Assembly (NCBI GenBank): GCA_009842245.1
Contig: VYFT01000009.1
Span: 1 to 55,257, forward strand
DNA from: Gammaproteobacteria bacterium
GTDB taxonomy: Bacteria; Pseudomonadota; Gammaproteobacteria; Pseudomonadales; Azotimanducaceae
Direction: 5' to 3'
Length of the DNA: 55,257 nt
The position numbers were made by a program, and so were the translations under genes. This document shows, piece by piece, positions 16,635-41,266 of the stretch (positions are counted from its first letter, which is position 1; each line of letters opens with the position of its first letter). The notes beneath the pieces were generated by a model. The model did no database searches. It saw only the letters and a list, made by a program, of their open reading frames with translations, and had not been told where the DNA came from.

Positions 16635-18455
16635 ATGCAGAGTACGAATATGGATACTTCACACACCGAGTCTAGGCAAATCCAGATCAAGGATTTGATC
16701 GACATAGGACAAGAACAAGGATATCTGACAGTCGATGAAATCAACGAATTTCTTGACGACGATTCCTCACGCGAGAACTTGCTAGATAACGTAATCAACT
16801 TGCTGTGTAATCTAGAAATTCCGATACACGGTCTACGCGATGACTTTGAAGTGTCGACAGAGCCGCCCACAACTCGAGCATCCGACTTTGAATCTGATCC
16901 GAATTCCACCGTTATTAACGTACGTGAGACGCGTAATGGTGAGAGTGCGAACCTCTCTCACACCTACCTACGTGGGCTACGAAAAAGTTCCTTACTATCA
17001 CGCAACGAAGAAATTGAGATCGCAATACGCTATGAAGAAGGTCTGCGAGAAGAATCAGCCGCGGCCGCACGGTTTCCCGGCGTCGTAGAACGGTTGCTGA
17101 CTCGACAAGGGAAGACCCGACGAGAGCAAAGAATTAAAAGCGTTGTAATCGGATTTCTCGACCCGTTGCACACAGTAATCCCTGCGAATGCACCTCGTTC
17201 GGTTTCTCCACAAGAAACAAATGGAACAAGAAATAACAACATCGATCCCAAGGTTATTCAGATTCGGTTTACGGAACTAAAAAGAGTCTATGGTAATTTC
17301 AAACGGTCGATCCGACAAAACAGTAAAGTATCGAGAAAGTACTTAGGAGCTCGAAAGAGGTTGTGCAATACATACGCGCGCTTCAAGTTAGTCCCAGAAT
17401 TGCGAAAGGAGCTGCATTCTCTGCCGGAGACATTGCAACAGAAAGTTCACCAACACGAACGCAGGATTTACCAATTGTGTCTCACTAGCGGAATGCCAAA
17501 ATCAAAATTGGTAGATCACGCAATGGCGAACGTGCAATGGATCAATCAAGAGATCAAGTCCAAACAACCCTGGAGCACTGGCTTAAAAGTAACGCGTGGC
17601 GATATCGTAAAGTCGCAAAAGTTCATTAACAACCTACTAAAACGAGCAGGAGTCACTCGATGCGAATTGAATGAAATCATCGAGCATATGCAGAGCGGCG
17701 CGAGAAAAGCAGCGAATGCGAAACAGGACATGGTGCGTTCAAATTTAAGACTCGTAATTTCTATCGCTAGAAAGCTCTCCAATCGAGGTCCGTATCTCTT
17801 GGACTTGATTCAAGAAGGAAATATTGGACTATTGAAAGCCGTCGAGAAATACGACTACCGACTAGGGTACAAGTTTGCTACATATGCGACGTGGTGGATC
17901 AGACAGGGAGTATCACGTTATATCGCTGAGAACGCACAAACCATAAGAATTCCCGCACATCTCGTAGAAACCATGAAGCGTCTGAATAGAACTCATCGTC
18001 AATTGGTACAAGAACTAGGAAGAGACCCAACGGTAGCAGAACTTAGCGATAAATCAAAAATCAGTCATAAGAAAATACACCAGATTCAGCGAGTGTGTGT
18101 GGAGGCGATCTCTATAGATGCACCTGTTCAGCAAGATAGCGAAAATTCAATCGGAGACTTTCTAGACGACCCTAACGCGATTGGTCCAGCCGAAAAGGCT
18201 ACAACTGCCAATTTACACGTCATAATCACCGAGTTGCTTAAAGAATTAAACGATGAAGAGTCGGAGATCCTAAGAATGCGCTTTGGTGTTGGCTTAGCGC
18301 GGGAATATTCCTTGGAGGAAATTAAAGAGCTACTCAACGTCACGAAAGAGCAGGTTAGAAAAGTAGAAGCTGCTGCACTGCGTAAACTACGCAATCCAAA
18401 AATGTCTGAACATCTCCGGGGATTCTTACAAGACAAGAACGGCGAGTCTATCTGA
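16635..18455 (+). CDS. Second full-length RpoD-like sigma-70 factor, divergent paralogue
   Basis: About 606 residues with the same layout as RpoD, including a region 1.1-like start ([20 protein letters not shown]), the long insert, regions 2, 3 and 4, and a tail ([10 protein letters not shown]) like that of E. coli RpoD. The core is well kept ([45 protein letters not shown]). Contact regions differ: region 1.2 reads [11 protein letters not shown] instead of [11 protein letters not shown]; the -10 helix reads [11 protein letters not shown] instead of [11 protein letters not shown]; the -35 helix reads [18 protein letters not shown] instead of [18 protein letters not shown]. It probably reads a modified promoter set. 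Start: ATG 16635 chosen to match RpoD; ATG 16650 and TTG 16584 are alternatives. It is too long and carries region 1.1, so it is not RpoS or RpoH. Confidence 0.88.
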
Positions 18456-26628: not shown

Positions 26629-28881
26629 TTATTTCAGTAAAAAGGAAAATGCTTCGTAACCAGCATCTTTAATAGCATCAATCGCTGACTCTGGAGACTC
26701 TTCAAAAATTGCCACGATGCTTCCTCCACCACCTGAGCCGGTCAACTTCGCGCCCAACGCACCGTGCATCCGAGCTATATGCACTAGTTCTTCAAGCTCT
26801 GGAGTAGATAATTGCAAGCCGTTGAGGTACCCGTGGCACAAGTTCATGAGAGTCCCTAGTTTCTGAACATTGCCCTCCTGAAATGCGCGAACGCCGCCAT
26901 CCGTCATCTTACCGATAGCATCAAACACTCTCTCGTATTCGGCCATATTCAGATCTCTGCCCTGGCGGACTTGCGCGACCATCATAGCTGTCAGACTCTC
27001 TTTACCACTCATACCGATCAGCACGTGTATCGGTGTTCCAATTTTGAGCTCTTGAAAGGTCGCCTCTTTCGTTTCTTGATCCCGTCTAAAGAGTATTGGT
27101 TTGCCGTATGTCGCTAGAGTATTGTCCACCCCCGACGGTGAACCGTGAGCAGCACGTTCACATTCATAGGCAAGTTCATTGATCTTGTCCAGACTGAGCT
27201 CCAACCCATAGTGATCAGAAAACGCTTTGATGACGGCTACCGCGATCGCAGCCGAACCGCCCAAACCCATGGCTCTGGGCACGTTTGGGAAAATCTCTAT
27301 GCACATCGTACGCTCGCTGAGGTCTAAACGTTCGATCAGCGTGCACAACATACCCAGCAATCCTTGCGGTCTGTCCTCTTGGGACGGTATTCGTTGCTCC
27401 ACACCCCACCTTGGTACGATCAGCATGGATACTTCGGAATCTCTTATTGTTGCTTCTACGGCTACAGGTAGCGGTACCGCAAGCGCTGGTCTACCGTAGA
27501 CCACAGCATGTTCACCAAGAAAAATAGTCTTTCCGAACGCCGAACTTCTTGGTTCGGTTTGTTGTGGTTGAGGTTCGTTCGAACGCATTTGATCCACTAT
27601 CTCTTTAGCTTTCCAAACTTTAATAGTGCCGTTTTCAACTAAGGAGTCGACGACGTGATCAAAGATGTCGGCCGGCACTTGAGCTGACGTAGCTACACTT
27701 CGCGCATGTAAGGTCATATGATTCTGCTGAATCCCTGCAGTAGCTAAAGCTCGAATAGCCGCAAAGTTCTGGGCTAAACCAACGCAACCCATTATTCCTG
27801 CTAGTTCAATTGCGGTCGGATTCCCGAGCAGTCGATGACAGAGTCGAACAGTTGGATTGGTTTCGAGAGAACCGCCGACAGTGCCTACCTTAATAGGTAT
27901 CTCGAGTCGACCCACGAGATCTCCGTCTTCATTAACTTCCCAGTCGGTTAAACCGCGGTAGCGTCCATCGCGGGCAGCATAGGCGTGGGCAGCTGCTTCT
28001 AAAGCACGATAATCGTTTCCAGTTGCAACCGCAATAGCGTCGATGCCATTCATGATGCCCTTGTTGTGGGTAGCCGCTCGATATGGGTCCACTCGTGCAA
28101 GTTCGTTCGCTAACACGATACCATCACAAACTTCTTTTCCGTGAAATCCAGGAATACTTAGATCTTCCGTCGGCATGGTTACTTCCGCCCACACGATTGA
28201 ACGGTCCGTAAGGTTGGAGAGGATGCGTAAGAACACGGTCCCGCCGGTTATCGACTCAACTAGGCTAGCGATACCTTCGCACATCCCATTGACTACGTTT
28301 GCTCCCATCGCGTCTCGCGTATCGACGAGCAAGTGAAGCACAAGCATTGAGCCCCTCCGTCCCGTTTCGTACGTATGCACCTCAATGTCTTTTGCACCAC
28401 CACCTCGAGCCACCATCTTTGGATGCAACGTGTTAGCTAAATTAAGGATTTCGTCTCGATGTTCCAACAACTTTTCGCGCGCAAGTTCTACATCGTCAAC
28501 ATACACGACTTGAACTTGTCCAGTGATTATGGGTGCTGAACACGCGACAGCGAAACCACCGTTGATTCGGGCAGTCCTTGCTGCACCAGAGAGACCCGCC
28601 ACAACCGATGGTTCTTCGACCACCAAGGGGACGACATATTCCTTACCATTGATTAAGAAGTTAACCGCGATTCCAAGTGGTAAACCAAACACTCCGACCA
28701 CGTTTTCGATCATCTTGTCCGCGACGTGCCGACGCAATGTATGAGTTCCGGAATCCAAAGATAACTCGTCAGAGGCGTCGATGAAACCGTGATCGGTCAA
28801 CTTCGCAACGCGCTCTGATACATCCAACCGGAAAAAGTTTGGAATACGTGAATTACGCTGTTTTTTCGACTCTGACTCCAT
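26629..28881 (-). CDS. HMG-CoA reductase (class II) fused to mevalonate kinase
   Basis: One 750-residue chain with two mevalonate-pathway enzymes. Residues 1 to about 430 are a class II HMG-CoA reductase: PLVVEEPSVVAG (catalytic Glu), DTRDAMGANVVN, THNKGIMNGID (Lys), VATGNDYRA (Asp) and QQNHMTLHAR (His). A short polar linker with a QPQQTEPRSS stretch follows. Residues from about 445 are a GHMP-family mevalonate kinase: KTIFLGEHAVVYG, MGLGGSAAIAVA (ATP loop), HGSPSGVDNTL (catalytic Asp) and KLTGSGGGGSIVA. The chain would turn HMG-CoA into mevalonate-5-phosphate. I saw no stop or frameshift at the junction. Starts at ATG inside the last codons of the phosphomevalonate kinase gene (29-base overlap). 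Confidence 0.92.
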   Translation of the reverse strand: MESESKKQRNSRIPNFFRLDVSERVAKLTDHGFIDASDELSLDSGTHTLRRHVADKMIENVVGVFGLPLGIAVNFLINGKEYVVPLVVEEPSVVAGLSGAARTARINGGFAVACSAPIITGQVQVVYVDDVELAREKLLEHRDEILNLANTLHPKMVARGGGAKDIEVHTYETGRRGSMLVLHLLVDTRDAMGANVVNGMCEGIASLVESITGGTVFLRILSNLTDRSIVWAEVTMPTEDLSIPGFHGKEVCDGIVLANELARVDPYRAATHNKGIMNGIDAIAVATGNDYRALEAAAHAYAARDGRYRGLTDWEVNEDGDLVGRLEIPIKVGTVGGSLETNPTVRLCHRLLGNPTAIELAGIMGCVGLAQNFAAIRALATAGIQQNHMTLHARSVATSAQVPADIFDHVVDSLVENGTIKVWKAKEIVDQMRSNEPQPQQTEPRSSAFGKTIFLGEHAVVYGRPALAVPLPVAVEATIRDSEVSMLIVPRWGVEQRIPSQEDRPQGLLGMLCTLIERLDLSERTMCIEIFPNVPRAMGLGGSAAIAVAVIKAFSDHYGLELSLDKINELAYECERAAHGSPSGVDNTLATYGKPILFRRDQETKEATFQELKIGTPIHVLIGMSGKESLTAMMVAQVRQGRDLNMAEYERVFDAIGKMTDGGVRAFQEGNVQKLGTLMNLCHGYLNGLQLSTPELEELVHIARMHGALGAKLTGSGGGGSIVAIFEESPESAIDAIKDAGYEAFSFLLK

Positions 28882-29830
28882 TGGAATCCCTTTGCAAATC
28901 GAGTAAAGTCACCGGTAAATCAACGACTTTATGACGCAACGCCTTTAATCGTTGCTGTTCGGTAGCTACAGCCACGCCGATATCACCACCACCAGCTCCC
29001 GATGGTTTGTATAACACTCCTACATCTAACGCTAGTTCATGCATGGTTTCATGTTGCACGCTCCAAATCGCGAGCTTCGATTTGGAATCAACACTTCGAT
29101 ATATCTTAATAAAGTTCTGTAATGCGTTAAAGAATTCGTTTTTGTCGGTCAAAGAGTCCGCGGCCGTGTCGGCAGCGGCGATGAAACTATCTTGTAGACT
29201 TACTGGTAAATTGTCAAACCCTTTTCGAAAACGACCGATCATCGACGCCGTTTCAGTGCTGAATCCGACGGAATATATGTCTAAGTATATCCCTGCAGGA
29301 AGCTCCGCCGATGTGCATGTCTGTTCCTTTACTTGAACAAGACCTCCAGAATAAGATGTAAGGACATCAACCCCACTACCCTGCGCTTGAGTAGCAGAAT
29401 ATATCCTCAGTACATCCTCTACCTGCATCGGAAGTGCGCTTAGCGTCGCTAGCGACGCATAAAGAGTAACCAGTACGCCTGCAGATGACCCCAAACCCAA
29501 TTTTCGCTGCTTAGAAAAGAATCGCTCTGTATTCATGTGTAGGGAACAGTGTTCGGGTAATTTATCATGCTCCACAAACCATTTCAAAGTAGCACTCAAT
29601 GAGTCAGTTCTATTTTTGGAAACTAAGTCTTGTAACGATTCGGTTTCATTCCAAAAGGGAGGAGAGCTCCGCAGCTCCCAATGTCCTTCATCGCGAACTA
29701 ATAATGAACAGTGCGCGCGTCGATTGACAGCTAGCGAGAGTGCCGAAGCTCCGTATAGGACCGCGTATTCCCCGGAGACAACCAACTTTCCGGGGCTGGA
29801 GACACTAACTTGCCGATAGGGTTGGCGCAT
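28853..29830 (-). CDS. Phosphomevalonate kinase (GHMP family)
   Basis: Adds the second phosphate to mevalonate-5-phosphate. About 325 residues: the N-terminal SSPGKLVVSGEYAVLYG, the ATP loop RKLGLGSSAGVLVTL (about 115), and QGSGVDVLTSYSGG (about 155) are GHMP motifs with the wording of bacterial phosphomevalonate kinases; the C-terminal GAGGGDIGVAV is the third motif. I chose ATG 29830, which starts 11 residues before the first motif; ATG 29866 would add 12. The gene overlaps mvaD by 26 bases and the reductase-kinase gene by 29, so the three mevalonate genes are tightly packed. The other possibility, a second mevalonate kinase, is less likely given the SGEYAVL signature. Confidence 0.88.
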   Translation of the reverse strand: MRQPYRQVSVSSPGKLVVSGEYAVLYGASALSLAVNRRAHCSLLVRDEGHWELRSSPPFWNETESLQDLVSKNRTDSLSATLKWFVEHDKLPEHCSLHMNTERFFSKQRKLGLGSSAGVLVTLYASLATLSALPMQVEDVLRIYSATQAQGSGVDVLTSYSGGLVQVKEQTCTSAELPAGIYLDIYSVGFSTETASMIGRFRKGFDNLPVSLQDSFIAAADTAADSLTDKNEFFNALQNFIKIYRSVDSKSKLAIWSVQHETMHELALDVGVLYKPSGAGGGDIGVAVATEQQRLKALRHKVVDLPVTLLDLQRDSNGVRVEKTA

Positions 29831-30755
29831 TGCCGATATCACTTTCAAGGGTGGAGAGCACTCCATCGGTGTCTTCTAGCGCTCGCCTGACAGTCGGTAG
29901 CACTTCAGGAGGACAAATCGCTTTTATTTGCGGTCCTGCATCACTAGTGAAGAAAACCGGTACACGATCATGCCGCAATCGTTCAATCGTATCGATCGCG
30001 TTCATCGTACCGGCACTCCAATAGCGGAGCGGAGGATCAGTAGACATCATCAGTGCATGCATGCGGTAACAATTCGCCTCACTAATCTCAGCTAGCAAGT
30101 CAAAGTTTCGACGGTGAATTGCTTGTTTGCAGCGTTCAAAATCATCACTTGTTGAGTCAACCCATTTCTCGAAAAACGGCGATGTCGCGACCGTCCGAGC
30201 CATGCCTGACGTCGAAGATGTAGGCTTTGGCTCGGTTGAAGTCACCGCGGCAACGACGCTTAACTCCCAATATTCTGGCGCAACCAACTGGACCGGGGCA
30301 CACTCCTCAGTATCGGGATGCATAGTTACGTAGCCGCTAAGCAACGAACGCACCGCGGACGCTGACCCAAAACGAGTCACCCGCGCGAGCGAAACTAAAT
30401 TTAGATCTAACCGACACAACTCGTTTATACCAACTGCCATCGCGGCGAATCCCGATGAGGAAGAAGCGAAGCCGCAGTTAGTTGGAAAGTTATTGCTTGA
30501 ATCAATCTTTAACCGTGGAATGTCGTACTGGTGACGTACCCACCCGAGCCACTGCAGAATCTTCTGATCGGCGATAGTCTTACCGTTAATGACGACCGTA
30601 TCAGCGCTCGCTTCAGTAACTGAGGTTCTGGTCTCTAAGCCACCTAAAGTTATGGACAACGATGGGCTGGCGGGAATCTTCTCAAGTTCGTCCCGTTTAC
30701 CCCAATACTTCACGAGTGCTACATTGGGATGCGCGACTACGTCGACCTGGTTCAA
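29805..30755 (-). CDS. mvaD: Diphosphomevalonate decarboxylase
   Basis: Final step of the classical mevalonate route, giving isopentenyl diphosphate with use of ATP. The 316-residue chain has AHPNVALVKYWGKRDE at the start, NNFPTNCGFASSSSGFAA (about 90-107), FGSASAVRSLLSGYV (about 130), SSTSGMARTV (about 180) and FFTSDAGPQIKAIC (about 270). The aspartate needed for catalysis is present in TSDAGP, so this is a decarboxylase and not a mevalonate-3-kinase relative. Start is TTG, overlapping the stop of the amidase gene (TTGA), which implies coupling. The isomerase (idi) and HMG-CoA synthase genes needed to complete the pathway are not in the window. Confidence 0.92.
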   Translation of the reverse strand: MNQVDVVAHPNVALVKYWGKRDELEKIPASPSLSITLGGLETRTSVTEASADTVVINGKTIADQKILQWLGWVRHQYDIPRLKIDSSNNFPTNCGFASSSSGFAAMAVGINELCRLDLNLVSLARVTRFGSASAVRSLLSGYVTMHPDTEECAPVQLVAPEYWELSVVAAVTSTEPKPTSSTSGMARTVATSPFFEKWVDSTSDDFERCKQAIHRRNFDLLAEISEANCYRMHALMMSTDPPLRYWSAGTMNAIDTIERLRHDRVPVFFTSDAGPQIKAICPPEVLPTVRRALEDTDGVLSTLESDIGNAPTLSAS

Positions 30756-32212
30756 CTGTAATCAGGTGGCGGAGTAAACCGATACCCCTCTTGCTCCAAA
30801 ATATGCGCAAGCTCAATAGTGATCATGTCTCCGTATTCTGGCCCGATTACTTGAACTCCAATGGGTAACTGGTCAACCTCACACAGTCCAGTGGGTATTA
30901 CAGTAGACGGTAAATATGCGTTAATCGCGAGACCCGCCCAAAACAATTGTTTGAAGTACGGTTGTGGCTCACCATTGACCGTGATAGTTCGTTCATGGAA
31001 AGGACCGTGGTCATGCGGATATGCTGAAGTCGCCATGATCGGTGCCAGTAGTACGTCAAACTTGGAAAAGAATTCGTGCCAAGCCCAGCGAACCCTAGTC
31101 CGTGCTTCGTGAAATTGCACCCAGTCGCGATAACGGGCTATGGGTGACAACATCAATTTCGAATCTGGGGAGTCATCAAATTCATCTACATCGGACAAGT
31201 CGTTCACAAGCCGGCGAAACTCATCTGCTGGAATCCTACAGTGTAATGTTGCGTTCAGAAGACATTGATAGCTACGAAGGAGCTCGTCCATCGACACGTC
31301 TGGACGTGCTTCCCAATCTATGTGTGCACCAAGCGATTCCAGCGTATCCGCGACTTTACGCACTTTTTGCATAACTTTTGCATCAACCGGCGCTACACTA
31401 TCGTCTTCCCATACCGCCACGCAGAGTTCATCCGCTTTCTTGGTCAGATTTGGTAAATCGACTCGTAGCCCCCGAGATTGAATCTCATCCGGTCCCATCA
31501 TGACTTCCAATGCAAGTTTCAAATCGTGCGCGGACCTTGCAAGCGGTCCAACCGCAGACAGATCGGGTGGCGCTAGAATACCGGGTGGCGAGTGTCCTCG
31601 AGGTGGGATCAAATTCCAAGTCGGTTTATGTCCAAACAACCCACAAAAATGAGCAGGATTTCGAATGGATCCGCCTATATCGGATCCTGAATCTAGACCC
31701 GTAAAACCCATAGCCAATGCTGCCGCGGAACCACCGGAAGAGCCACCAGGTGAGCGTGCCAAGTCCCAAGGATTATTTGTACAACCATAAATATCGTTGT
31801 AACTTTGAAAGTCAGCGAGTCCAAATGGGACGTTGGTTTTTCCAAAAATGATTGCTCCAGCTTCTTTTAATCGTCGTATCGCCAAAGCGTCTTCTTGGGG
31901 AAAGTTTTGTTTCAACATCGGAATCCCCCAAGTGGTTGGGGTATCCACCACATCGTAGGACTCCTTCACGGTCATCGGTACACCGTGCAATGGTCCTAGA
32001 TTGGAATCCCCTTGACGGATTTGTTGGTCAGCTTTCTTGGCTAGTTCGAGTGCGCGCTCCCTTATCTGCCAAACAATCGCGTTAATTTCTGGGTTGTATC
32101 GATCCACTCGATCCCAGAACAGCTTCAGGAGCTCTTCACTCGAAATTTCTTGGCGTTTGATTCTCGCCGCAAGGTCGACAGCAGTCGCAAACACTAATTC
32201 TGACTTAGCCAC
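30752..32212 (-). CDS. Amidase signature family hydrolase
   Basis: Ser-cisSer-Lys amidase of 486 residues. TVKESYDV near residue 80 holds the catalytic lysine; SPGGSSGGSAAALAMGF (about 154-170) and LDSGSDIGGSIRNPAHFCG (about 173-190) hold the two serines. The chain is full length and close to stand-alone amidases, not GatA, since no GatB or GatC is nearby. The substrate is unknown. It is wedged between the beta-barrel gene (17 bases) and mvaD (overlapping stop/start), so it belongs to the same transcript as the mevalonate genes. Whether it acts on an isoprenoid or lipid amide is open. Confidence 0.88.
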   Translation of the reverse strand: MAKSELVFATAVDLAARIKRQEISSEELLKLFWDRVDRYNPEINAIVWQIRERALELAKKADQQIRQGDSNLGPLHGVPMTVKESYDVVDTPTTWGIPMLKQNFPQEDALAIRRLKEAGAIIFGKTNVPFGLADFQSYNDIYGCTNNPWDLARSPGGSSGGSAAALAMGFTGLDSGSDIGGSIRNPAHFCGLFGHKPTWNLIPPRGHSPPGILAPPDLSAVGPLARSAHDLKLALEVMMGPDEIQSRGLRVDLPNLTKKADELCVAVWEDDSVAPVDAKVMQKVRKVADTLESLGAHIDWEARPDVSMDELLRSYQCLLNATLHCRIPADEFRRLVNDLSDVDEFDDSPDSKLMLSPIARYRDWVQFHEARTRVRWAWHEFFSKFDVLLAPIMATSAYPHDHGPFHERTITVNGEPQPYFKQLFWAGLAINAYLPSTVIPTGLCEVDQLPIGVQVIGPEYGDMITIELAHILEQEGYRFTPPPDYS

Positions 32213-32229
32213 ACCAACTCTCTCTGTTA

Positions 32230-33477
32230 CTAGAAACCATAGGTTAATCCCACTTCTAAATAGCTATCATTTTTTAAAGGGAAGAGTACATCGTCCGCCG
32301 CGATCTGGTTGAGGAGAACAAGCTCCAATGCAACTGACACACTCTCCGATACTCGCCGCGAAAACTCCAACGATGCAATGGCGCTGTCGTTGTCGTTCCC
32401 GAGTAGTACGCTCGCGGTGACGGTCGTTCCTTGAAAGTCGTTGAAGCTAAATCTGCTCGCAACGAAGAGGTCATTGTCAAAGCGAGTAGTAGCACGTTCG
32501 CGACGTTCGTCGAAGCTCCATTCAGTGACCAAAGTCATATCAACCACGGTACCGAACAGGGAAAAATATGAGTATTCGAAGCCACCCACAAATGCAGAGT
32601 AGTCTTCTTCGATGCCCAGTCGATTGAGCGCACCTGTACGGCGAGACCCTTCAAATTTTAGTAACCAACCGCTGTGCTGAAGTCGCAGGTCAATTGAAGT
32701 CTGTGATATTTGAGTATAGAGGGGTGAGAACGACAAGGGGAAGTCCAATCCAAAATTTGGTACGAAAATTGGTTCTCTATTGGTACCAACAAATCCACTA
32801 ATCCCAACGTCTAAGTAACCGAAGGTGTGACTGTATCTGAACGCAACGTCGAAGTGCCGTTCCTCTTCATCATGCTCATAAAGAACACCGTCGGTATCGA
32901 TCTCAAAAGGAAAGCCTAATCGACCAGTAGGTCCAGGAAAGGTTCGTTGGCGATGGAAAGGAAGACCGAACAGTTCAAAGATTCCAGACTCTGTTGAAAG
33001 CGTTACGTGAAACATCGGTTGCCCGAGTTTGAATTCCTCATTTGGATTTTCTACTAAGTCGGTCTGATTTACGATATCAATTAGATGGTGAGACTCAGTC
33101 GCACCCCAAAAAACACGACCAAGTCCCACACGCATTTCAAGCTCTCCTAACGGAGTGGGGCGATAGTGAACTAAATAAGCTTCGCGTACATCACCCCGAG
33201 TTCTGTCTCGATCTGTTTCATCGTAGCGGTAAAAACCGACGAGCCGGACACTAGTGCTTTCGCTCAGTTTTGCGTCTACTTCAGGCATTACGAAAACGCT
33301 ATTTGATAATCCTTTATTACGAGAGTCTGAACCGAACAGGGACTGATCCCAAAACCATCGAGGTTCTAGCGCGATCGTACCAGAGAATTCAATACTATCG
33401 CTCGCGCTCACAATCCCAACACCGGCACTCAGCGACAGGTACGTGCCAAAGATCAATCGAAAGAGTTTCCGCGACAT
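32230..33477 (-). CDS. Outer-membrane beta-barrel protein of the MMPL/LolA-like locus
   Basis: Predicted outer-membrane protein of 415 residues. An N-terminal signal peptide (about 1-25, ending in VSASD) is followed by alternating polar/hydrophobic strands throughout and a C-terminal aromatic residue in VGLTYGF, as used for barrel insertion. Visible strand-like pieces include REAYLVHYRP and ELEMRVGLGRVFWGATESHH. I do not recognise a named porin family. Proteins of this sort are commonly encoded with an MMPL transporter and a LolA-like periplasmic protein, which are immediately upstream here (31-base gap). The three together look like a trans-envelope system; direction and cargo are unknown. 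Confidence 0.75.
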   Translation of the reverse strand: MSRKLFRLIFGTYLSLSAGVGIVSASDSIEFSGTIALEPRWFWDQSLFGSDSRNKGLSNSVFVMPEVDAKLSESTSVRLVGFYRYDETDRDRTRGDVREAYLVHYRPTPLGELEMRVGLGRVFWGATESHHLIDIVNQTDLVENPNEEFKLGQPMFHVTLSTESGIFELFGLPFHRQRTFPGPTGRLGFPFEIDTDGVLYEHDEEERHFDVAFRYSHTFGYLDVGISGFVGTNREPIFVPNFGLDFPLSFSPLYTQISQTSIDLRLQHSGWLLKFEGSRRTGALNRLGIEEDYSAFVGGFEYSYFSLFGTVVDMTLVTEWSFDERRERATTRFDNDLFVASRFSFNDFQGTTVTASVLLGNDNDSAIASLEFSRRVSESVSVALELVLLNQIAADDVLFPLKNDSYLEVGLTYGF

Positions 33478-33508
33478 TGAAAGATTGAATTTTCGCTATC
33501 GCGTTGAG

Positions 33509-34312
33509 CTATCGAGTCCTTCGAAGGCTGGTTTGAGTGAAGTCATCTTCGTCTAGGTCGACTTGAAACTCAAAGTCCGACCAATTCAATGTCGTGCTCT
33601 TACCATTGACGTGATTGGTCATGACCATTGTCTGCGCAAACCAATACTCATCCAAGTATTGTTCGTAGTCGTTGACAGTCAACGTCTTTAGGTGGTCTCC
33701 CCTACGGTCGTAATACTCGATCTTCCATACGCGATAAGCTTCGTCGTCGTACCAAACCACTTGACGGCTATAGTTGGATCCCTTAGTGACAGGTACTCGC
33801 TCGCTCACCGTGCAATTAAATTCGTCGCAAGGTTCGTCTCGTAGATACTTATATGTGAACTTACTAACTTCTGGTGGATTCATGTCTTCATAGGAAAATT
33901 CACTACCCATGAAAGATTTCGATTGACCCGAAGAGTTCAATCTGGTGACTCGATTTGTCGCGGGTAAAAAGAACCACTGGTCGTCCGGTTGGTTTTCATT
34001 GGAATGAATTAATAACGCGGTCCCTCGTACATCTCTCGGTTCGTCAAATAAGAATAGTAAGCGATCGCCTTGTTCTTCTAGTTCGAGTATTTGTACTCGC
34101 AGTTCGCGCTTGGATTCTCTACCTTTACGATCCTTTAGCACCATGACTTGTTTTGCGATGTAATTGCCAAATCCTTCTTTAGCGTCTTGCGCGGCTTGAG
34201 CAATTTCAAGTCCTTTAGCTGCAGCTTCTTCGTCTGATTCTGCACAAACTGATGGTGCCAAAACCATCCCTAGAGAGCAGATGACAAAAAGTGTACCGGT
34301 GAGTTTCTTCAT
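33509..34312 (-). CDS. Outer-membrane lipoprotein-sorting (LolA-like) periplasmic protein
   Basis: Periplasmic protein of 267 residues with a signal peptide ending near PSVCAESD. The body fits the LolA-like family partnered with MMPL transporters: DEPRDVRGTALLIHS, DDQWFFLPATNRVTRL, MGSEFSYEDM and the C-terminal ATTLNWSDFEFQVDLDED-like region. These proteins have a lipid-holding, unclosed barrel fold. The start overlaps the MMPL stop by four bases. It likely ferries a lipid between the transporter and the outer membrane; this follows from family and context. Confidence 0.85.
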   Translation of the reverse strand: MKKLTGTLFVICSLGMVLAPSVCAESDEEAAAKGLEIAQAAQDAKEGFGNYIAKQVMVLKDRKGRESKRELRVQILELEEQGDRLLFLFDEPRDVRGTALLIHSNENQPDDQWFFLPATNRVTRLNSSGQSKSFMGSEFSYEDMNPPEVSKFTYKYLRDEPCDEFNCTVSERVPVTKGSNYSRQVVWYDDEAYRVWKIEYYDRRGDHLKTLTVNDYEQYLDEYWFAQTMVMTNHVNGKSTTLNWSDFEFQVDLDEDDFTQTSLRRTR

Positions 34313-36606
34313 AATTTTCTCCTATCTATCGCTAACAACAGAGGCGGCAGGAAAAGAAAGTCGGCTACCAACGCAAAGATTACGGTAATTGTGAGCATCA
34401 TTCCCAGCATCCAAGTCACTGCAAAACCCGATAGGGAAAAGACAATAAATCCGCATGCTAACACGATCGTAGTGGTCCATAATGCACGACCTACGCGATT
34501 GAACGTAAAGCGAACGGCTTCTTGCGGGGACTCTCCACGGCGACGGGCGAGCTGATACTTGGTCAAGAAATGCGTAGTATCGTCGACGATGATTCCAAAA
34601 GCGATAGCCGTCATCACGGAACCGGCCAGTCCTACTGTACCAACAAAATGCCCCCACACGCCAAATGTCAGCACAGCTGGTACATAGTTGGGTAAGAGAC
34701 TGATGAATCCAATCGTCAGACTCTTGAGGAGTATGATCAATAATACCGAAATCAAGCCCATCGCGATGACGGTCGCCAGCAACATCGAGTCGATATTTCG
34801 TTCCGACAAGTGTGCGAAAACGATAGTAAAACCTGTGGTCTCGGTAGCGATTGCGGGTGAATTCGCTTGCAGCCACTCCTCGGCGCGATACGCTACTTCT
34901 TTTAGTTCATCGGCAGTCATCCCCGTTTTTGCTGTCGCAGTGACCCGAGTAGCCGACTTAGCGATGTCTATTTGGTCTGTCAAGTCTCGTCCAAACGGAA
35001 GCGAAAACTCATAAAGCAACAGATACTGTGCCGCGAGTGTCGGATCGTCAGGTAGCCGATAGAACAAGTCGTCATCATTGTTCATGTTCATATTCAGCCG
35101 CTTCATCGTGTCGGCGAAGGTTTGTACGTAGCCAACTTCCTTTTGCTCACGCAACCACGCTGAGAACGCATCTACTTGGTTCAGGAATTCCGGATCTGTT
35201 ACTCCGCCATCTTGTCCAGAATCAAGTGAAAACTCCCATGATTCCAGTCCTGTCAGGTTCTCAGCAATAAAGTCGCTGTCGGTTCGAAATTTGTAACGTT
35301 TGTCGAAGTATTGGGTCCAATTGTCAGTGAACTCCAAACGAAACACACCCGATATCGTAAGCAGAATAATCAACGTACCACCTGCTAGTAACCAATAACG
35401 TCGAGAGATCACGAAATTCGAAAATCGTTCGAACGGCGCGTGAGTCTGAGTCTTCTTGGTTGGCGCCCGCAACGGCAACACAGCCAATAACGCTGGTAAC
35501 AACGTAAAAGATAACAATAGCGCCATGATTACGCCGAAGGCTACGAAGTTCCCCAATATGTGAAATGGCGGGGAATCCGATGCGTTCAGGGTAAGAAACG
35601 CTAGGGCGGTTGTAACTGAAGTAACCGTAACAGGAAACACATTACTTTGTACAGCAGCACTGATCGCTGCTCGCTTTTCCATCCCATCGCGCATGTTTGC
35701 TAGCGTCGAAGTCACGATGTGGATGGAGTCCGCAATTGCCAGAGTCATGACAATTACCGGTATTCCAGCTGTCACTGGATTTAGAACAACGGATAACCAT
35801 CCGGCTAGTCCCATGGTAACGTTTATCGTGCACATGACCAGCAAAGTCACTACAACAGTCGCAAAAAAGGATCGGAGCAATGCAAACGTTAAGACTACGA
35901 TCACCAAAAAGACTACCGGGATTAAGGTGAACATGTCTGCCTGCGTTGCGTCGTAAAACGTTCGTTGCAGAACGACATCACCGGTCATGTACAAATCGAA
36001 TCCGGAGTATTCCTCCTGAGCTGTTTCAACAAACGTCTGTAGGTAGTCGGTAACCGCGAGAACCGCGGTGTCGCGTTCATCAGGAAAGACAAAATTTATC
36101 ACAACCGCAGCGATGGTTCCATCTTGAGAAACCAAGCGATCAACCAATTCCCGGGAGTTTTGCGCGATGTCTTGAATCCGTAGTAGTTCAGAATCACTAA
36201 GCTCGCTTGCGTATTCCACGAGCGGAGCTACAAACAAATCACCATCGATTGCTTCGCTGTGATCGAAATTCACGAGCGAATCCACGCGAGTCGCGTGTGG
36301 TACTAACCAAGCTTCCTCGGTGAGGTGCTCGATAAACGCCAACGCTTCCCGAGTGTAAATCGTGCCCTCTTTGGGGGCGACCGCCAATAACACACGATTC
36401 GTTTCAACGTATGTGTCCTCAAACTCTTCGAACGCTAGTAACTGTGGGTTGTTTTCACTAAACAACACAAAGTGGTCGCTCGTAATACCTACTCTAGGTA
36501 CTCCTAGCGAGAGCGCACCAACCACCAAAACAACGCCACCGAGAAACCACCAACGATGTGTCAGCGATGCTTCGGTGAACTTGTTGAAAATCGCGTTCGC
36601 CATCAA
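34309..36606 (-). CDS. MMPL/RND-family transporter (HpnN-like)
   Basis: Inner-membrane transporter of 765 residues with two repeats, each with one leading helix, a large periplasmic loop and five grouped helices. The proton-relay aspartates are visible in helix 4 of each half: MTLAIADSIHIVTS (near residue 290) and AFGIIVDDTTHFLTKYQ (near 680). This is the lipid-exporting type of RND protein that includes hopanoid transporter HpnN and mycobacterial MmpL proteins. It lies between the MpaB-like gene (50 bases upstream) and the LolA-like gene (four-base overlap). Cargo is not readable; an isoprenoid lipid is suggested only by the neighbours. Confidence 0.9.
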   Translation of the reverse strand: MMANAIFNKFTEASLTHRWWFLGGVVLVVGALSLGVPRVGITSDHFVLFSENNPQLLAFEEFEDTYVETNRVLLAVAPKEGTIYTREALAFIEHLTEEAWLVPHATRVDSLVNFDHSEAIDGDLFVAPLVEYASELSDSELLRIQDIAQNSRELVDRLVSQDGTIAAVVINFVFPDERDTAVLAVTDYLQTFVETAQEEYSGFDLYMTGDVVLQRTFYDATQADMFTLIPVVFLVIVVLTFALLRSFFATVVVTLLVMCTINVTMGLAGWLSVVLNPVTAGIPVIVMTLAIADSIHIVTSTLANMRDGMEKRAAISAAVQSNVFPVTVTSVTTALAFLTLNASDSPPFHILGNFVAFGVIMALLLSFTLLPALLAVLPLRAPTKKTQTHAPFERFSNFVISRRYWLLAGGTLIILLTISGVFRLEFTDNWTQYFDKRYKFRTDSDFIAENLTGLESWEFSLDSGQDGGVTDPEFLNQVDAFSAWLREQKEVGYVQTFADTMKRLNMNMNNDDDLFYRLPDDPTLAAQYLLLYEFSLPFGRDLTDQIDIAKSATRVTATAKTGMTADELKEVAYRAEEWLQANSPAIATETTGFTIVFAHLSERNIDSMLLATVIAMGLISVLLIILLKSLTIGFISLLPNYVPAVLTFGVWGHFVGTVGLAGSVMTAIAFGIIVDDTTHFLTKYQLARRRGESPQEAVRFTFNRVGRALWTTTIVLACGFIVFSLSGFAVTWMLGMMLTITVIFALVADFLFLPPLLLAIDRRKL

Positions 36607-36656
36607 GAAAACGACGCGCTACCGAACTGTGTACTTCGAAACTGAAGTAACAACGA

Positions 36657-37886
36657 TCACCAAGGTTGTGATTTGGTTGACAAATAGTGATTAGGCATGA
36701 GGTACGCTGTTTTCGGGCTGTCGTACGCAGCTACTTCCAGCATTTGACCGAAATTTATTTGTCTTGTCGCGCTGTCGGAACGAAACATCCGTTGCAATCG
36801 GACCTTGAAGCGCCATAATGGAAGGGCACCAACAGTGTTCTTTTTTGGAAAACCTAGTTGGCTGGAGAGCTCTTTGCCAATCAAAGCTCGCGAAAGCGTG
36901 TACCCAAGATTGAGAGTCTTTTCAATCTCTTTTGAATCTTCGATCCCTGCCGTCAATGGAATCGCGTGTATCAGAGCATTTGACATGCGGACTGCATCCT
37001 CATCGGGCCACGGTTCGCAACGGAGAACTGTCGACCATAGTGCGCGCGCATCCTGCTGATCGTGGAAAAGTATCGTTTCCGGTATGCCCATGACATAGCT
37101 AGCATAACGCCACAGTTCCATTAGACTTTTTTCCTCGTCGCGGGTAAAAACCGCTCCTACTTTCTTCGCATGTTCAAGCAGGCGCATCGAAAACACAGTA
37201 GCAGCGAAACCTAAATGGGCCGCACTGATTGGAGTGCCATAGAAGTCCTCATCCCAGACATCCCCTTGTTTGCGGAACAAGAAACGTACCCGTGCATGAA
37301 TGAACCGAAGTCGCATGGACAGTTTCCACCCGTCGCCATATCGCCTCAAGCCGCCAGGCATATAGGTTTCGAGCAAGTGCCGATTGTTCTGCATTAAACG
37401 ACGCTTTGCTGTATTCGCATTAAGCACCCGACCCGTCGTCGCGAACGACTTCGAAATCAACGTAGCGAACCCTTCAATCAAGACTCCAGTCACGAAGGCT
37501 ACCAAAATGTTCGTTGTATTCAGATGAAACGCACGAATTGCCGGTCGATGCGCCTCAAAGTCCAACCAATCTGGTTCACCGACGTGGTCGTCAAAAAATT
37601 CTCGAAAAACCTGTGGCGCGTCTTTAATCACATCATCTTCGAGCTCGATTCCGGCTTTTAAAAACTTATGCAAGTCTGCCGGTTGCATATCTGCTAGTTC
37701 CTCAAGAACCCGGTCCAATGCCGGATCACCAATTCTCGTGTGTTTGAGATAGTTGTCCGTTCGTGCTCGATCGTAGTCGCGAGCACCTTCGAGCCGTGGA
37801 TGGTATGCTTTGGGGATGTCGAGTTCTAAATTTTTACTCGTATCGGCTTCCAATAAACCTTGCCTCATTTCCTCGGACGAAGTCAT
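36657..37886 (-). CDS. MpaB/DUF2236-family protein, predicted heme oxygenase-like
   Basis: Predicted member of the DUF2236 family (409 residues), which includes MpaB and the rubber-cleaving Lcp oxygenases and binds heme in the studied examples. The N-terminal 100 residues are a helical leader. The core shows DWLDFEAHRPAIRAFHLNTT, GVLIEGFATLISKSFATTGR, then MRLRFIHARVRFLF with the conserved His/Arg pattern near residue 195, and GTPISAAHLGFAATVFSMRLL near 220. No signal peptide is visible. First gene of the minus-strand array, with the MMPL transporter 50 bases downstream. Oxidation of an isoprenoid is a guess from family and neighbours. Confidence 0.75.
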   Translation of the reverse strand: MTSSEEMRQGLLEADTSKNLELDIPKAYHPRLEGARDYDRARTDNYLKHTRIGDPALDRVLEELADMQPADLHKFLKAGIELEDDVIKDAPQVFREFFDDHVGEPDWLDFEAHRPAIRAFHLNTTNILVAFVTGVLIEGFATLISKSFATTGRVLNANTAKRRLMQNNRHLLETYMPGGLRRYGDGWKLSMRLRFIHARVRFLFRKQGDVWDEDFYGTPISAAHLGFAATVFSMRLLEHAKKVGAVFTRDEEKSLMELWRYASYVMGIPETILFHDQQDARALWSTVLRCEPWPDEDAVRMSNALIHAIPLTAGIEDSKEIEKTLNLGYTLSRALIGKELSSQLGFPKKNTVGALPLWRFKVRLQRMFRSDSATRQINFGQMLEVAAYDSPKTAYLMPNHYLSTKSQPW

Positions 37887-38139
37887 AACACGTGGTAGGT
37901 GCCTAGTTTAGAGACTTCGAAAACGTAAAACATTCCAATTTTAAGAATTAGCGTATAGGGTATAGAGTATTACGCAATTGCTAATGGTTTCTTGCTACGA
38001 CCTTGACTATCCATTGCGTGGTATCAAGTGAGCTGTTAACATAAAATGCACTTGGTGAAAACTAGTCTGTTGCCGTATCGTAGGCGACGGACGGGTTGAT
38101 TATCCCGTTAAAGACGAGATTTGATAGCACTTCCCGATT
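37887..38139. promoter_or_regulatory. Divergent promoter region between the MpaB-like array and the squalene/phytoene synthase
   Basis: 253 bases without a gene. It must contain the promoter for the long minus-strand isoprenoid/envelope array and that of the synthase. TTGACT (38003-38008) and TAAAAT (38042-38047) are promoter-like but badly spaced. A small hairpin ACGGG/CCCGT (about 38091-38108) is close upstream of the synthase ATG. No operator repeat was identified. Confidence 0.4.
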
Positions 38140-39150
38140 ATGGACAAAGCTAAAGCCATCGAATATCAGAACGCGATCCTACCGCATGTGTCGCGCACGT
38201 TTGCGTTGACCATCCCGCAGCTTCCGGATCCGTTGCAAGACGTAGTTGGAAATTCGTATCTGCTCTGTCGTATTGCCGACACGATCGAAGATGAACCAGC
38301 ACTAACAGCCGAACAGAAGAGTCGTTTTTTGACGATGTTCTCCGATGTAGTGGCCGCGAAGGAAACTCCACAAATTCTCGCCGAAGAATTACACCCGCTG
38401 TTGACCGATTGGACTTTGAAAGCCGAAAGAGACTTAGTACAAAACACTCCAATCATAATCGGAATTACGCATGACTGTACGCCAGAGCAACGCGACATCA
38501 TGGAGCGTTGTATTTCAACCATGTCTTCAGGAATGGCAGAATTCTGTGCGAAGAAACAATTAGCAACACTTGATGAATTGAAAAGCTATTGCTATTACGT
38601 TGCTGGTGTCGTTGGTGAGCTTCTCACAGACCTGTTCTGCGACTTTTCCGATGAGATCGCTCGCTCTCGGGACAAGTTGATCACTTTGTCTGTGTCCTTT
38701 GGCAAGGGCTTACAAATGGTCAATATTCTCAAGGATGTATGGGTAGATGCCAGCCGTGGAGTAACGTGGCTTCCCGCGGAGCTCTTCCGCGTCACCGAAA
38801 ATCCTGACGGTACTACATCGTCCGATCCTGTCTTAACGGTCGAAGGGATGCGGAAATTAATAGGAACTACGTATGACTATCTGTCGCAAGCTCTCCAATA
38901 CAGTTTGATGATTCCAACGAGAGAGGTTGGAATTCGCCGGTTCCTGCTATGGACTCTAGGTATGGCAGTTCTTACGCTGCGCCGAATAAATAAGAACCCT
39001 AATTTTCAGCGCGGGGACAATGTGAAGATATCACGCAAGCAAGTGGCTGCTACTACATTCGTAGCCAATAGCATCGTGGGTTTCAACTTCTTAATCGATT
39101 CATTGTTCCGTGCTTTAACGAAAGGGTTACCCGGCAACAACCAAAAGTAA
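38140..39150 (+). CDS. Squalene/phytoene synthase family protein
   Basis: Head-to-head prenyl synthase of 336 residues, joining two farnesyl (or geranylgeranyl) diphosphates. Two aspartate-rich motifs for magnesium-diphosphate binding are clear: LCRIADTIEDEP (about residues 46-57) and QMVNILKDVWVDASRG (about 190-205). VSRTFALTIPQLP at the start and YYVAGVVGELLTDLF in the middle are also typical. The C-terminus is hydrophobic (VAATTFVANSIVGFNFLID) and may attach it to the membrane as in squalene synthases. I lean to squalene synthase over phytoene synthase from the DTIEDE motif and anchor; there are no carotenoid genes nearby. It is divergent from the mevalonate array. Confidence 0.85.
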   Translation: MDKAKAIEYQNAILPHVSRTFALTIPQLPDPLQDVVGNSYLLCRIADTIEDEPALTAEQKSRFLTMFSDVVAAKETPQILAEELHPLLTDWTLKAERDLVQNTPIIIGITHDCTPEQRDIMERCISTMSSGMAEFCAKKQLATLDELKSYCYYVAGVVGELLTDLFCDFSDEIARSRDKLITLSVSFGKGLQMVNILKDVWVDASRGVTWLPAELFRVTENPDGTTSSDPVLTVEGMRKLIGTTYDYLSQALQYSLMIPTREVGIRRFLLWTLGMAVLTLRRINKNPNFQRGDNVKISRKQVAATTFVANSIVGFNFLIDSLFRALTKGLPGNNQK

Positions 39151-39218
39151 CTCTTCGTCGCGTACCTCGCACCTGCTGAGAGTTTGCGAGCATCCAAACT
39201 TCTCTACTCCATCGATTG

Positions 39219-39824
39219 CTATCGTTCTTCGAGAGTAGTCAACTCCTCGTCGTCGACCATATCGTGATCTAGCTCACGAACACGTTCAAGGATATGCGTT
39301 CTGAGATCGTGGGCATAGTCTTTTTCAAATCCTAAGAACACACTCTGTCCTCCGGCCGTGTACAGTTTGAGTGCGCCTAAATTGACTAAACGATCGAAGA
39401 CGTTGACAGTAGTCTCTGCATGTTGGATCCGCGCGAATGGTATCGAAAATGTGCGCACGTAGAGAATTCCCTCCTTGTAGAGAAAGTCGTGCTCTCTCAG
39501 CACAAATCCGCGTCGAGGAACCTCAAAAATCGGCCAAGTTACGCAAATAACAATGAATACGAGAGTCGCTGAGAATAGCGTTAATCCAATTGGGTTCATA
39601 AATACGATCTTTGTTGGCAACCATCCTAGAACCAACAGTCCAATGAACAACAGCACAAATATTGACCAAGTAAATGCGTTCCTTATGGAATTTCGAACGA
39701 CTAGCCGTGGCGAAACAGCTCGCCAGTTTACTTCCGAAACTCGAGGTACGTTTTCTAAGTTAATGTCAGGATTTGTAAACACGCGACTGTGCATTGGTTG
39801 ATCGACGGTCTCAATAATATCCAC
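39219..39824 (-). CDS. Bacterial PH-domain membrane protein (YdbS/DUF304-like)
   Basis: Membrane protein of 201 residues. Two adjacent helices lie at about residues 55-100 (FVLLFIGLLVLGWLPTKIV and LTLFSATLVFIVICVTWPI). The C-terminal half is a bPH2 domain with FVLREHDFLYKEGILYVRT and IPFARIQHAETTVNVFDRLVNLGALKLYTAG. Such proteins occur in pairs in many bacteria; here it is single. Function is unknown beyond a proposed envelope role. It is convergent with the synthase gene, and a stem CTCGCA/TGCGAG (39166-39190) between them may act as terminator. Confidence 0.85.
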   Translation of the reverse strand: MDIIETVDQPMHSRVFTNPDINLENVPRVSEVNWRAVSPRLVVRNSIRNAFTWSIFVLLFIGLLVLGWLPTKIVFMNPIGLTLFSATLVFIVICVTWPIFEVPRRGFVLREHDFLYKEGILYVRTFSIPFARIQHAETTVNVFDRLVNLGALKLYTAGGQSVFLGFEKDYAHDLRTHILERVRELDHDMVDDEELTTLEER

Positions 39825-39883
39825 GAGACTATCACAATGCTAAAATTGGTAATAGAATTAGGTTTCAAAAAGACCTGAGGGTC

Positions 39884-39889
39884 AGGAGG
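39884..39889 (+). promoter_or_regulatory. Strong Shine-Dalgarno of the thioredoxin-fold lipoprotein gene
   Basis: AGGAGG located six bases before ATG 39896; it fixes the start of the lipoprotein signal peptide. Confidence 0.8.
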
Positions 39890-39895
39890 AATTGA

Positions 39896-41266
39896 ATGAA
39901 GAGATGGTTGTATGGCACTTTACCACTTTTAATCCTATGTCTGAGCAGTTGTAGCCAAGTAGATCCCCCAGCCACAGCGGGTATTGAATTTTTCCACGGT
40001 ACCTTTGAAGAGGCTCTACAACAAGCTGAAGAAGAAGAAAAGCTTGTATTCGTCGATGTATACACTACTTGGTGTGGTCCCTGTAAGGTGATGTCTGAAA
40101 CGGTGTTTCCAGATCAAGACGTCGGTGAGTACTTCAACGCTAAATTTATCAGCTTCAAGCTCGACGCGGAAGACGTATCGATTGAAGGACCACGTATTTC
40201 TAACACTTATGATGTTGGAGCATATCCGACACTGCTATTTCTCAATCCGGATGGATCCGAAATTGGTCGAGGTGTCTCTGGTTACGACAAAGCAGGACTC
40301 CTCAATTTAGTCGAGGACGTTCTCAGCGAACAGTCGAAGCAGACTGAGCTGCTCGTTGAACTCGCCACACGATACGAAGGTGGTGAGCGCGACAAAGAAT
40401 TTGTTCAAGAGTATCTCTCCGTGGCAAGTTTAGTAGGCTCGAAAATAGTCGACTCGCAATCCCGCTTTGAACACTCGCAAAAATATGGCCCGGTTTTCGC
40501 GGAATACATCGAGACTCACAGTAGCGACGTCGCGATGCTCACAAACGAAAAAGACTTTCAATTGATCCGAAGCTATGCCACCAATCGCCCAAAGTCGCAC
40601 CCAGCGGTTGCACTAGTAGTAGAAAACTTTGACCGCTTCGCGGAAGAGGTGCCGGAATTCGCGTTGTGCTACTTTGTTGTTACAGCAAATTACTATACCG
40701 TTGTGAGTCTTGCGAGTGCTGGAGATCTGAGCTATTTGGAGCACATTGCGCTCCTTGATACTGAACTGGCGCACGCACATTCGGTGATGGCAGCAGAAGA
40801 TCCGAGCAATGCTATTTTAAAAGACCAGTTGCTTCCGAGAGCACGTACCGAATATCTGATCGGCACGAACGATTGGGACGGATACTATGCGGAAGTCCTC
40901 GAGAGAGTGGAAGAGGCGGAAGACCAAGCGGACAAATCGAGAATTATGAGCCGGGCGGCCAGTAGGCTAATGTACTCAGGAGAAGACCTTTACGTAGAAA
41001 AGGGAGAAGAGTTCGCGACTAAAGCTTATCAGCATGACAAGACCGAACCGATGAATGTGTTGAATTACAGCAGTGTTCTAATGAAATCTGGACAGCTCGA
41101 AGCGGCGATCGCAGTGTGTGAAGAAATGTTGGTCACTCTGGATCCAAGTAGTCCTCACTATAACTTCCGGGACGCGCTTGAAGCTAGCATCGCTCGAATA
41201 AAAGCGATGATGGACGAAAAACTAGACGAAGAAACAGATTCAGAGGAAAGCAACACAGAGACCTAG
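39896..41266 (+). CDS. Thioredoxin-fold lipoprotein with C-terminal helical repeats
   Basis: Envelope lipoprotein of 456 residues. The lipobox CLSSC is near residue 19. Residues about 30-150 are a thioredoxin domain with the active site TTWCGPCKVMSETVF (about residue 60) and the cis-proline in VGAYPTLLFLN. This resembles the periplasmic C-terminal domain of DsbD. The remaining 300 residues are helical and repeat-like, with a TPR-style pair near the end (residues 360-430), and finish in an acidic tail. Likely role: thiol exchange or reduction in the periplasm, perhaps on secreted partners held by the repeats. The stop is TAG. Two DsbA-type genes lie close by in the opposite orientation. Confidence 0.85.
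   Translation: MKRWLYGTLPLLILCLSSCSQVDPPATAGIEFFHGTFEEALQQAEEEEKLVFVDVYTTWCGPCKVMSETVFPDQDVGEYFNAKFISFKLDAEDVSIEGPRISNTYDVGAYPTLLFLNPDGSEIGRGVSGYDKAGLLNLVEDVLSEQSKQTELLVELATRYEGGERDKEFVQEYLSVASLVGSKIVDSQSRFEHSQKYGPVFAEYIETHSSDVAMLTNEKDFQLIRSYATNRPKSHPAVALVVENFDRFAEEVPEFALCYFVVTANYYTVVSLASAGDLSYLEHIALLDTELAHAHSVMAAEDPSNAILKDQLLPRARTEYLIGTNDWDGYYAEVLERVEEAEDQADKSRIMSRAASRLMYSGEDLYVEKGEEFATKAYQHDKTEPMNVLNYSSVLMKSGQLEAAIAVCEEMLVTLDPSSPHYNFRDALEASIARIKAMMDEKLDEETDSEESNTET

Follow-up and report, generated by a model that had tools for sequence, protein, structure and literature searches.

A recurrent MpaB-MMPL-LolA-barrel cassette, probably linked to squalene, beside the mevalonate operon of a gammaproteobacterium

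Does a run of isoprenoid and envelope-transport genes on contig VYFT01000009.1 of an uncultured member of the Azotimanducaceae (Gammaproteobacteria; assembly GCA_009842245.1) form one system, or do two modules lie side by side? The stretch analysed (positions 1 to 55,257 of the contig; hereafter the window, at its full length of 55,257 nucleotides) contains eight minus-strand genes and a divergent squalene synthase (SQS) gene, which a first-pass annotation had interpreted as a locus that makes, modifies and exports an isoprenoid lipid. This interpretation probably holds for SQS and the genes for an MpaB/Lcp-type oxygenase, an MMPL transporter, a LolA-like protein and an outer-membrane barrel (hereafter the cassette), but it does not extend to the mevalonate block, for which membership in a single ancestral system is not supported. 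Judged from sequence comparisons, the cassette is real, recurrent and probably squalene-linked, and the array with the mevalonate genes is a local arrangement. The genomes and loci compared are designated by G and L numbers, with G000 being the genome of the window and G378 that of a sister species. The nine genes are as follows.

38140..39150, plus strand: SQS (PF00494 SQS_PSY, 169.5 bits), divergent from the cassette
36657..37886, minus strand: MpaB/Lcp-type oxygenase (PF09995 MPAB_Lcp_cat, 64 bits; no evident signal peptide by eye)
34309..36606, minus strand: MMPL/RND inner-membrane transporter (PF03176, 119 bits; nearest NCBIfam model, HAE3)
33509..34312, minus strand: LolA-like periplasmic carrier (PF17131, 198.5 bits; DUF1329, 34 bits; signal peptide by eye)
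32230..33477, minus strand: porin-like outer-membrane beta-barrel (signal peptide and C-terminal Phe by eye)
30752..32212, minus strand: amidase (PRK06170, 573 bits)
29805..30755, minus strand: diphosphomevalonate decarboxylase MvaD (TIGR01240, 230 bits; cut-off, 171)
28853..29866, minus strand: GHMP kinase, probable phosphomevalonate kinase (PMK; PF00288, 24.5 bits)
26629..28881, minus strand: HMG-CoA reductase-mevalonate kinase fusion (HMGR-MK; TIGR00532, 406 bits; TIGR00549, 231 bits)

The coordinates of all nine open reading frames (ORFs) in the first-pass annotation were confirmed, as was the tight spacing of the eight minus-strand genes from 37886 to 26629. Adjacent genes are separated by 50 bases or less or overlap (MpaB-MMPL, 50; MMPL-LolA, -4; LolA-barrel, 31; barrel-amidase, 17; amidase-MvaD, -4; MvaD-PMK, -62 as measured from the longest ORF starts; PMK-HMGR/MK, -29; minus denotes an overlap), and the divergent MpaB and SQS genes are 253 bp apart. 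The same co-directional run goes on past 26629 into xth (gap, 21) and genes for an SNF2-type helicase (46), an ankyrin protein (-4) and RmuC (51). Because the run extends into unrelated genes, close packing does not by itself define a unit of eight genes, and it was rejected as proof of one.

The first-pass annotation had itself named separation of the mevalonate and transporter blocks in relatives as the finding that would tell against it, and gene order shows the two to be largely separate. The order in G378 is SCO-PolA-YihA-DsbA2-cytochrome-DsbA1-amidase-MvaD-PMK-HMGR/MK-xth, with nothing between DsbA1 and the amidase, and MpaB-MMPL-LolA-SQS lie on a different contig from this operon. The window keeps the gene order of G378, but its DsbA1-amidase interval holds the barrel, LolA, MMPL, MpaB, SQS, PH-like and thioredoxin-like genes (32230-41266). 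A full-length MMPL with at least 48% identity was found in 10 of 100 sampled genomes of the family (48-72% in the nine besides G000), and MpaB lies beside it in all but one (G349). Of the nine family genomes with an MpaB cassette, only G000 has MvaD next to it; the two lie about 67 kb apart in G345 and on separate contigs in the other seven, which are drafts. A single ancestral eight-gene operon for biosynthesis and export was rejected on the basis of the G378 synteny and these positions. In several family members the amidase gene immediately precedes MvaD, and by synteny it belongs with the mevalonate block.

Within the same sample of 100 genomes, MvaD was detected in 61, GcpE in 32 and neither in seven; comparison of the two tables revealed no genome with both. 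The mevalonate route stands in for the methylerythritol phosphate (MEP) route in this family. Since G000 gave no match to GcpE (other MEP genes were not sought), its mevalonate operon serves general metabolism first, and the amidase-MvaD-PMK-HMGR/MK block is the mevalonate operon of the cell, no other source of isopentenyl diphosphate (IPP) having been detected. Full-length HMGR-MK fusions were found in 12 of 293 genomes of the order including G000, 11 of them in the family of the window and one in another family, and HMGR and MK are adjacent yet separate genes in G288 and G209.

The separation of the two blocks is, however, incomplete. In two genomes of another genus, g149 (G375 and G343), and in the closely similar records L116 and L149, HMGR-MK is located directly upstream of MpaB, with genes for isopentenyl diphosphate isomerase and SQS nearby, and a polyprenyl (probably farnesyl) diphosphate synthase gene lies near the cassette in L093, L094 and L116. 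The mevalonate block of G375 (L235) contains the amidase, MvaD and PMK but lacks HMGR-MK, which is found instead beside MpaB (L093), and a congener without a close MMPL (G323) has the full block (L234). This makes a second case of a mevalonate gene coupled to the cassette: in g149, HMGR-MK appears to have relocated to the cassette, whereas in G000 it is the cassette that is found at the operon.

Outside the family, a scan of named genomes by MMPL alignment yielded 79 loci among the matches listed (best 80 kept), a set biased to close relatives. Their labels, which are the submitters' own, include Gammaproteobacteria, Alphaproteobacteria, Latescibacterota, Gemmatimonadota, Nitrospirales, Opitutia, Bryobacterales and others. 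With the 20 family MMPL loci whose neighbourhoods were compared and the window, and after L111 and L123 had been dropped as duplicates of L090 and L096, 98 loci were available, many of them cut by contig ends. MpaB was present in 38, of which 27 contain LolA and 22 the barrel; a weak partial MpaB match in L135 was removed by the coverage filter. Isoprenoid genes were found in 16 of the 38 loci with MpaB versus 1 of the 60 without it (Fisher p 3e-7); these loci are not independent, close relatives being included, and about nine lineages were counted. Two of the 16 (L114 and L129) contain only IspH. Distances among LolA and barrel proteins track those of MMPL (Mantel r 0.90, n=25, and 0.94, n=14, respectively); with MpaB (n=35) included, these sets represent 25 of 27 LolA, 14 of 22 barrel and 35 of 38 MpaB loci, the rest having an MMPL shorter than 600 aa or a frame cut short. 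In an MMPL tree rooted with an HpnN-like protein, the pair formed by the window and G378 stands at an uncertain base. Many records carry isolate names of sponge projects, which the record titles do not state as such.

Two unrelated routes to squalene accompany the cassette, namely SQS or the HpnC, HpnD and HpnE set. SQS occurs with the cassette in the window, G378, G340, G319, G375, G343, L128, L132 and L136, and the G345 cassette is flanked by HpnC, HpnD and HpnE, each above its curated cut-off. The three genes were also found away from the cassette: all above cut-off in G382 (L204), with HpnD just under it (272.7 versus 278.6) in G388 (L207), where HpnC and HpnE exceed theirs, and with an HpnE-like gene detected by tblastn beside above-cut-off HpnC and HpnD in G386 (L218). 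PF00494 was searched genome-wide for 29 of the 38 MpaB-positive loci plus four family genomes (L116, L138, L143, L149 and L150 were left out) and for 29 of the 60 MpaB-negative loci as controls. It was present in 29 of 29 cassette genomes and in 17 of the 29 controls; within the family, the corresponding figures are 9 of 9 versus 23 of 91 other genomes, not all of which were examined for MpaB. A squalene cyclase domain exceeded its cut-off in 7 of 24 cassette genomes and in one of nine family members (G340), so that none was detected in 25 of 33, absence from drafts being weak evidence. The better negative cases are G345 (one contig, 97% complete), G076 (100%) and G375 (100%). Neither G000 (a draft listed as 94% complete) nor G378 gave a match to PF13249. 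A C30 carotenoid route was considered and not favoured, the unclassified PF01593 matches of G000 lying on other contigs (C18 and C75), but such a route may exist in this genome.

As for the individual proteins, the first-pass identities stood for HMG-CoA reductase, mevalonate kinase, MvaD, amidase, LolA_like, MMPL, MPAB_Lcp_cat and SQS_PSY, all of which exceed curated cut-offs. SQS scored 107.8 bits against TIGR01559 (squal_synth), under the cut-off of 286.8. The identities were weaker for the kinase and the barrel. The best NCBIfam PMK model gave 53.9 bits (cut-off, 165.7), and because the score is under all PMK cut-offs, the name rests on operon position; relatives sit between MvaD and HMGR-MK in many family loci. 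The barrel has no match in Pfam at E values up to 1 or in NCBIfam. Its AlphaFold model (mean confidence score pLDDT, 71.5) has about 18-20 strands, and its best Foldseek matches are porins (E 2e-10 to 1e-8; TM score 0.36-0.55), which indicates the fold class only. MpaB was found to have the Lcp fold. H197, invariant in 25 of 25 sequences, aligns with the proximal heme His198 of Lcp. Against the PDB, the single MpaB sequence had no sequence match and the MpaB profile did match, and the VIA list contained no prominent family other than Lcp and anethole oxygenase. MpaB differs from Lcp as described in the available text of PMC5522427 in having no evident signal peptide and in the replacement of distal Lys167-Thr168.

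By analogy, the transport part would work most like AmeABCD of Castellaniella defragrans, which, according to the available text of PMC6394551, comprises an HAE3-type RND pump, a LolA-superfamily periplasmic protein (DUF1329) and an outer-membrane protein and is likewise linked to apolar terpenoids. An RND protein, a LolA-superfamily protein and an outer-membrane barrel are indeed combined in one cassette here. The likeness is one of described make-up, and there are differences: AmeABCD has four subunits including AmeC and a DUF1302 outer-membrane protein, the window RND protein matches HAE3 (TIGR00921) best of all models but at 136.6 bits, under the cut-off of 351.9, the barrel lacks DUF1302, and no further gene in the window block could be AmeC (COG4447 itself was not searched). 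That system serves tolerance to monoterpenes that the cell consumes, and the same text mentions neither an Lcp-type oxygenase nor squalene synthesis. In Thalassolituus oleivorans, TOL_3187 combines MMPL and LolA-like domains in one protein and is followed by a predicted porin without conserved domains, TOL_3188; as far as the available text of PMC6304351 goes, n-C28 alkane induces both, the authors suggest that alkanes go through the porin and that TOL_3187 serves to deliver it, and isoprenoid genes are not mentioned. BstABC of Methylococcus capsulatus resembles the cassette in consisting of RND, periplasmic and outer-membrane-associated proteins encoded with sterol synthesis genes, with no Lcp-type oxygenase mentioned in the accessible part of PMC10942540. 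A further likeness is the tetratricopeptide repeat (TPR) protein carried by several cassette relatives, although a PDB sequence search with one such protein gave only TPR-repeat entries and chimeras containing such repeats, none named BstC. Membership in BstABC was rejected (30.4 bits versus the BstA cut-off of 1400; no PF13249 match in G000).

The first-pass comparison of the transporter with HpnN was appropriate at the level of the MMPL/RND superfamily, but not beyond it (104 bits versus 752). A hopanoid system was rejected, the HpnN models being far under cut-off (104 of 752 and 43.6 of 1100) and G000 having no cyclase match. In L048 (another family of the order), an MMPL gene lies beside mevalonate, squalene-hopene cyclase (SHC) and SQS genes; unlike the window, this locus has an MlaC-type protein and SHC and lacks MpaB, LolA and the barrel. 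Hopanoid-type clusters (SHC, SQS and HpnH-, HpnA- or HpnM-like genes) mixed with MvaD, PMK, HMGR and MK were observed in relatives (L048, L050, L051 and L194).

Our preferred explanation, to which as a whole we give about an even chance of being right, is that SQS and MpaB-MMPL-LolA-barrel constitute a lipid oxygenase and exporter located beside the mevalonate operon. SQS, in keeping with its family function, would join two farnesyl diphosphates to give squalene; MpaB, a cytoplasmic protein of the Lcp fold, would oxidise or cleave a C=C bond of squalene or a related linear isoprenoid; the MMPL/RND pump would lift the apolar product out of the inner membrane, the LolA-like protein would ferry it across the periplasm, and the porin-like barrel would hand it to the outer leaflet or the outside. 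The position of the cassette at the head of the mevalonate operon in this lineage could couple precursor supply to product export. That an isoprenoid is probably made, modified and exported is supported by the recurrence of the MpaB-MMPL set across phyla with squalene- or IPP-supply genes and by the presence of PF00494 in every cassette genome searched. Bacterial squalene is mostly considered as the starting point for hopanoids, sterols or C30 carotenoids. A cassette widespread in genomes mostly without a detected cyclase would make linear squalene products end products with their own transport route. If so, RND/LolA/porin transport, a kind known from the handling of terpenes and alkanes, would extend to the export of biosynthetic products, and Lcp-type oxygenases would gain a part in biosynthesis; the set has few enough genes for testing in a laboratory host. 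More tentatively, several phyla may share such cyclase-independent use of squalene, with supply by either route, a cytoplasmic Lcp-type heme oxygenase and RND/LolA/porin secretion of an envelope lipid or a host-directed signal or defence compound; many of the bacteria concerned are presumably sponge-associated, to judge from their isolate names. The open-licence literature searched contained no description joining an Lcp-type oxygenase, squalene synthesis and RND/LolA/barrel transport.

Several observations weigh against this explanation. Twenty-two of the 38 MpaB-positive loci have no isoprenoid gene inside the compared flank and three have steroid-type genes (L091, L138 and L150; compared with eleven of the 60 MpaB-negative loci), and L145 carries SQS, IspH, LolA, a barrel and a TPR protein but no MpaB. 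MpaB distances track those of MMPL less well (Mantel r 0.53) than LolA and barrel distances do, and sterol genes are associated with a nested MMPL clade that lacks MpaB, so that the substrate may be broader than squalene. No barrel match occurs on the cassette contig of G378, and in the cassette genomes G391, G393 and G394 the PF00494 gene cannot clearly be assigned to the squalene type. In G323, SQS is present without a close MMPL or any cyclase match. In MpaB, an invariant Gln-Asn replaces the distal Lys167-Thr168 of Lcp (Gln in 25 of 25); the distal Lys is 59% conserved among 495 Lcps in the available text of PMC5522427. We infer the outward direction of transport. Finally, the window SQS falls with SQS from the sterol clusters of its congeners (support 0.84) and not with the cassette SQS of other phyla; it therefore did not travel with the cassette here. 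On this phylogeny, SQS was probably resident in the genus, where some species use it for sterols and where in G000 and G378 it came to stand next to the cassette. Its adjacency in the window alone is thus a weaker argument, which is the main reason why our confidence is moderate.

The last point leads to an alternative that we consider unlikely, in which the cassette traffics a steroid or other lipid and the window SQS is a leftover of the sterol pathway of the genus, incidentally adjacent. Four congeners (G105, G157, G260 and G362) have no MMPL of at least 48% identity and carry SQS beside a sterol cluster with genes for a 3beta-HSD-like protein, a Rieske protein, ERG24, a P450 and a squalene epoxidase-oxidosqualene cyclase (SE-OSC) fusion. 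A related sterol cluster adjoins an MMPL relative and a TPR protein in three Nitrospirales/Nitrospira loci (L137, L141 and L144), and the SQS grouping and the absence of PF13249 matches from G000 and G378 also fit this alternative. Yet an open SQS frame lies beside the cassette in both G000 and G378, in differing arrangements, and SQS or HpnCDE also accompanies cassettes of other genomes in which no cyclase was detected. The cassette might also work inward, the barrel, LolA-like protein and MMPL importing apolar lipids (sterols, squalene or alkanes) from a host or the environment and MpaB starting their breakdown. This seems rather unlikely to us: linkage to biosynthetic genes of two squalene and both IPP routes, together with PF00494 in all cassette genomes searched, points to a product made inside. 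Export is also the direction in which HpnN and MmpL proteins act. MMPL relatives do occur near genes of steroid-modifying types, namely sterol methyltransferase, KshA-like Rieske and P450 genes (L139, L142, L148, L151, L154 and L171), and the alkane response of the Thalassolituus genes and the sponge-project isolate names agree with uptake, whereas AmeD is described as an exporter in the available text of PMC6394551.

Plain juxtaposition, with MMPL-LolA-barrel serving an unrelated lipid or lipoprotein function and the SQS and mevalonate genes being irrelevant to it, would account for the tight run into unrelated genes and for the syntenic mevalonate operon of the sister species without the cassette. 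The MMPL-LolA-barrel loci without MpaB (L155-L189) show none of the isoprenoid genes sought. The difference in isoprenoid linkage between MpaB-positive and MpaB-negative loci makes this alternative distinctly improbable, as does the recurrence, in separate lineages, of an MpaB cassette coupled to HMGR-MK, IspH, SQS or HpnCDE.

Two further genes in the enlarged DsbA1-amidase interval of the window, for a PH-like membrane protein and a thioredoxin-like protein (39219..41266, between dsbA and the amidase in G000; named by eye), were not found in the matching interval of G378 or in the cassette loci L089, L093 and L095, and a cassette role for them is unlikely. Promoter-like and terminator-like sites were not above chance (6 versus 15.9 expected and 14 versus 13.3 expected, respectively), and GC content has no clear step across the cassette.

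Some gene fusions were encountered among the sterol loci. Squalene epoxidase and oxidosqualene cyclase occupy one frame at L137:14052-17678 (1208 aa, domain-tested) and, by tblastn, open frames of about 1125-1300 aa in L141, L144, L190, L191, L192, L196, L197 and L198. The clusters bearing them are common to Nitrospirales records and relatives of the window, with 53-82% protein identity; the available text of a paper on sponge sterols names ERG24, CYP51 and LSS and mentions no fused epoxidase (PMC9531527). A GPP34 (Golgi phosphoprotein 3-type) domain is fused to a cytochrome P450 at L139:14383-16542, the sole domain-tested member of a sequence cluster from nine loci near MMPL relatives (two from the same genome), several of which carry sterol methyltransferase or KshA-like Rieske genes. 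Elsewhere in the window, an ABC permease-like gene is split into two ORFs (543-2186 and 2295-2855), perhaps by a frameshift or assembly error, and two RpoD-like sigma factor genes, named by reading their translations, lie nearly in tandem (13332-15149 and 16584-18455).

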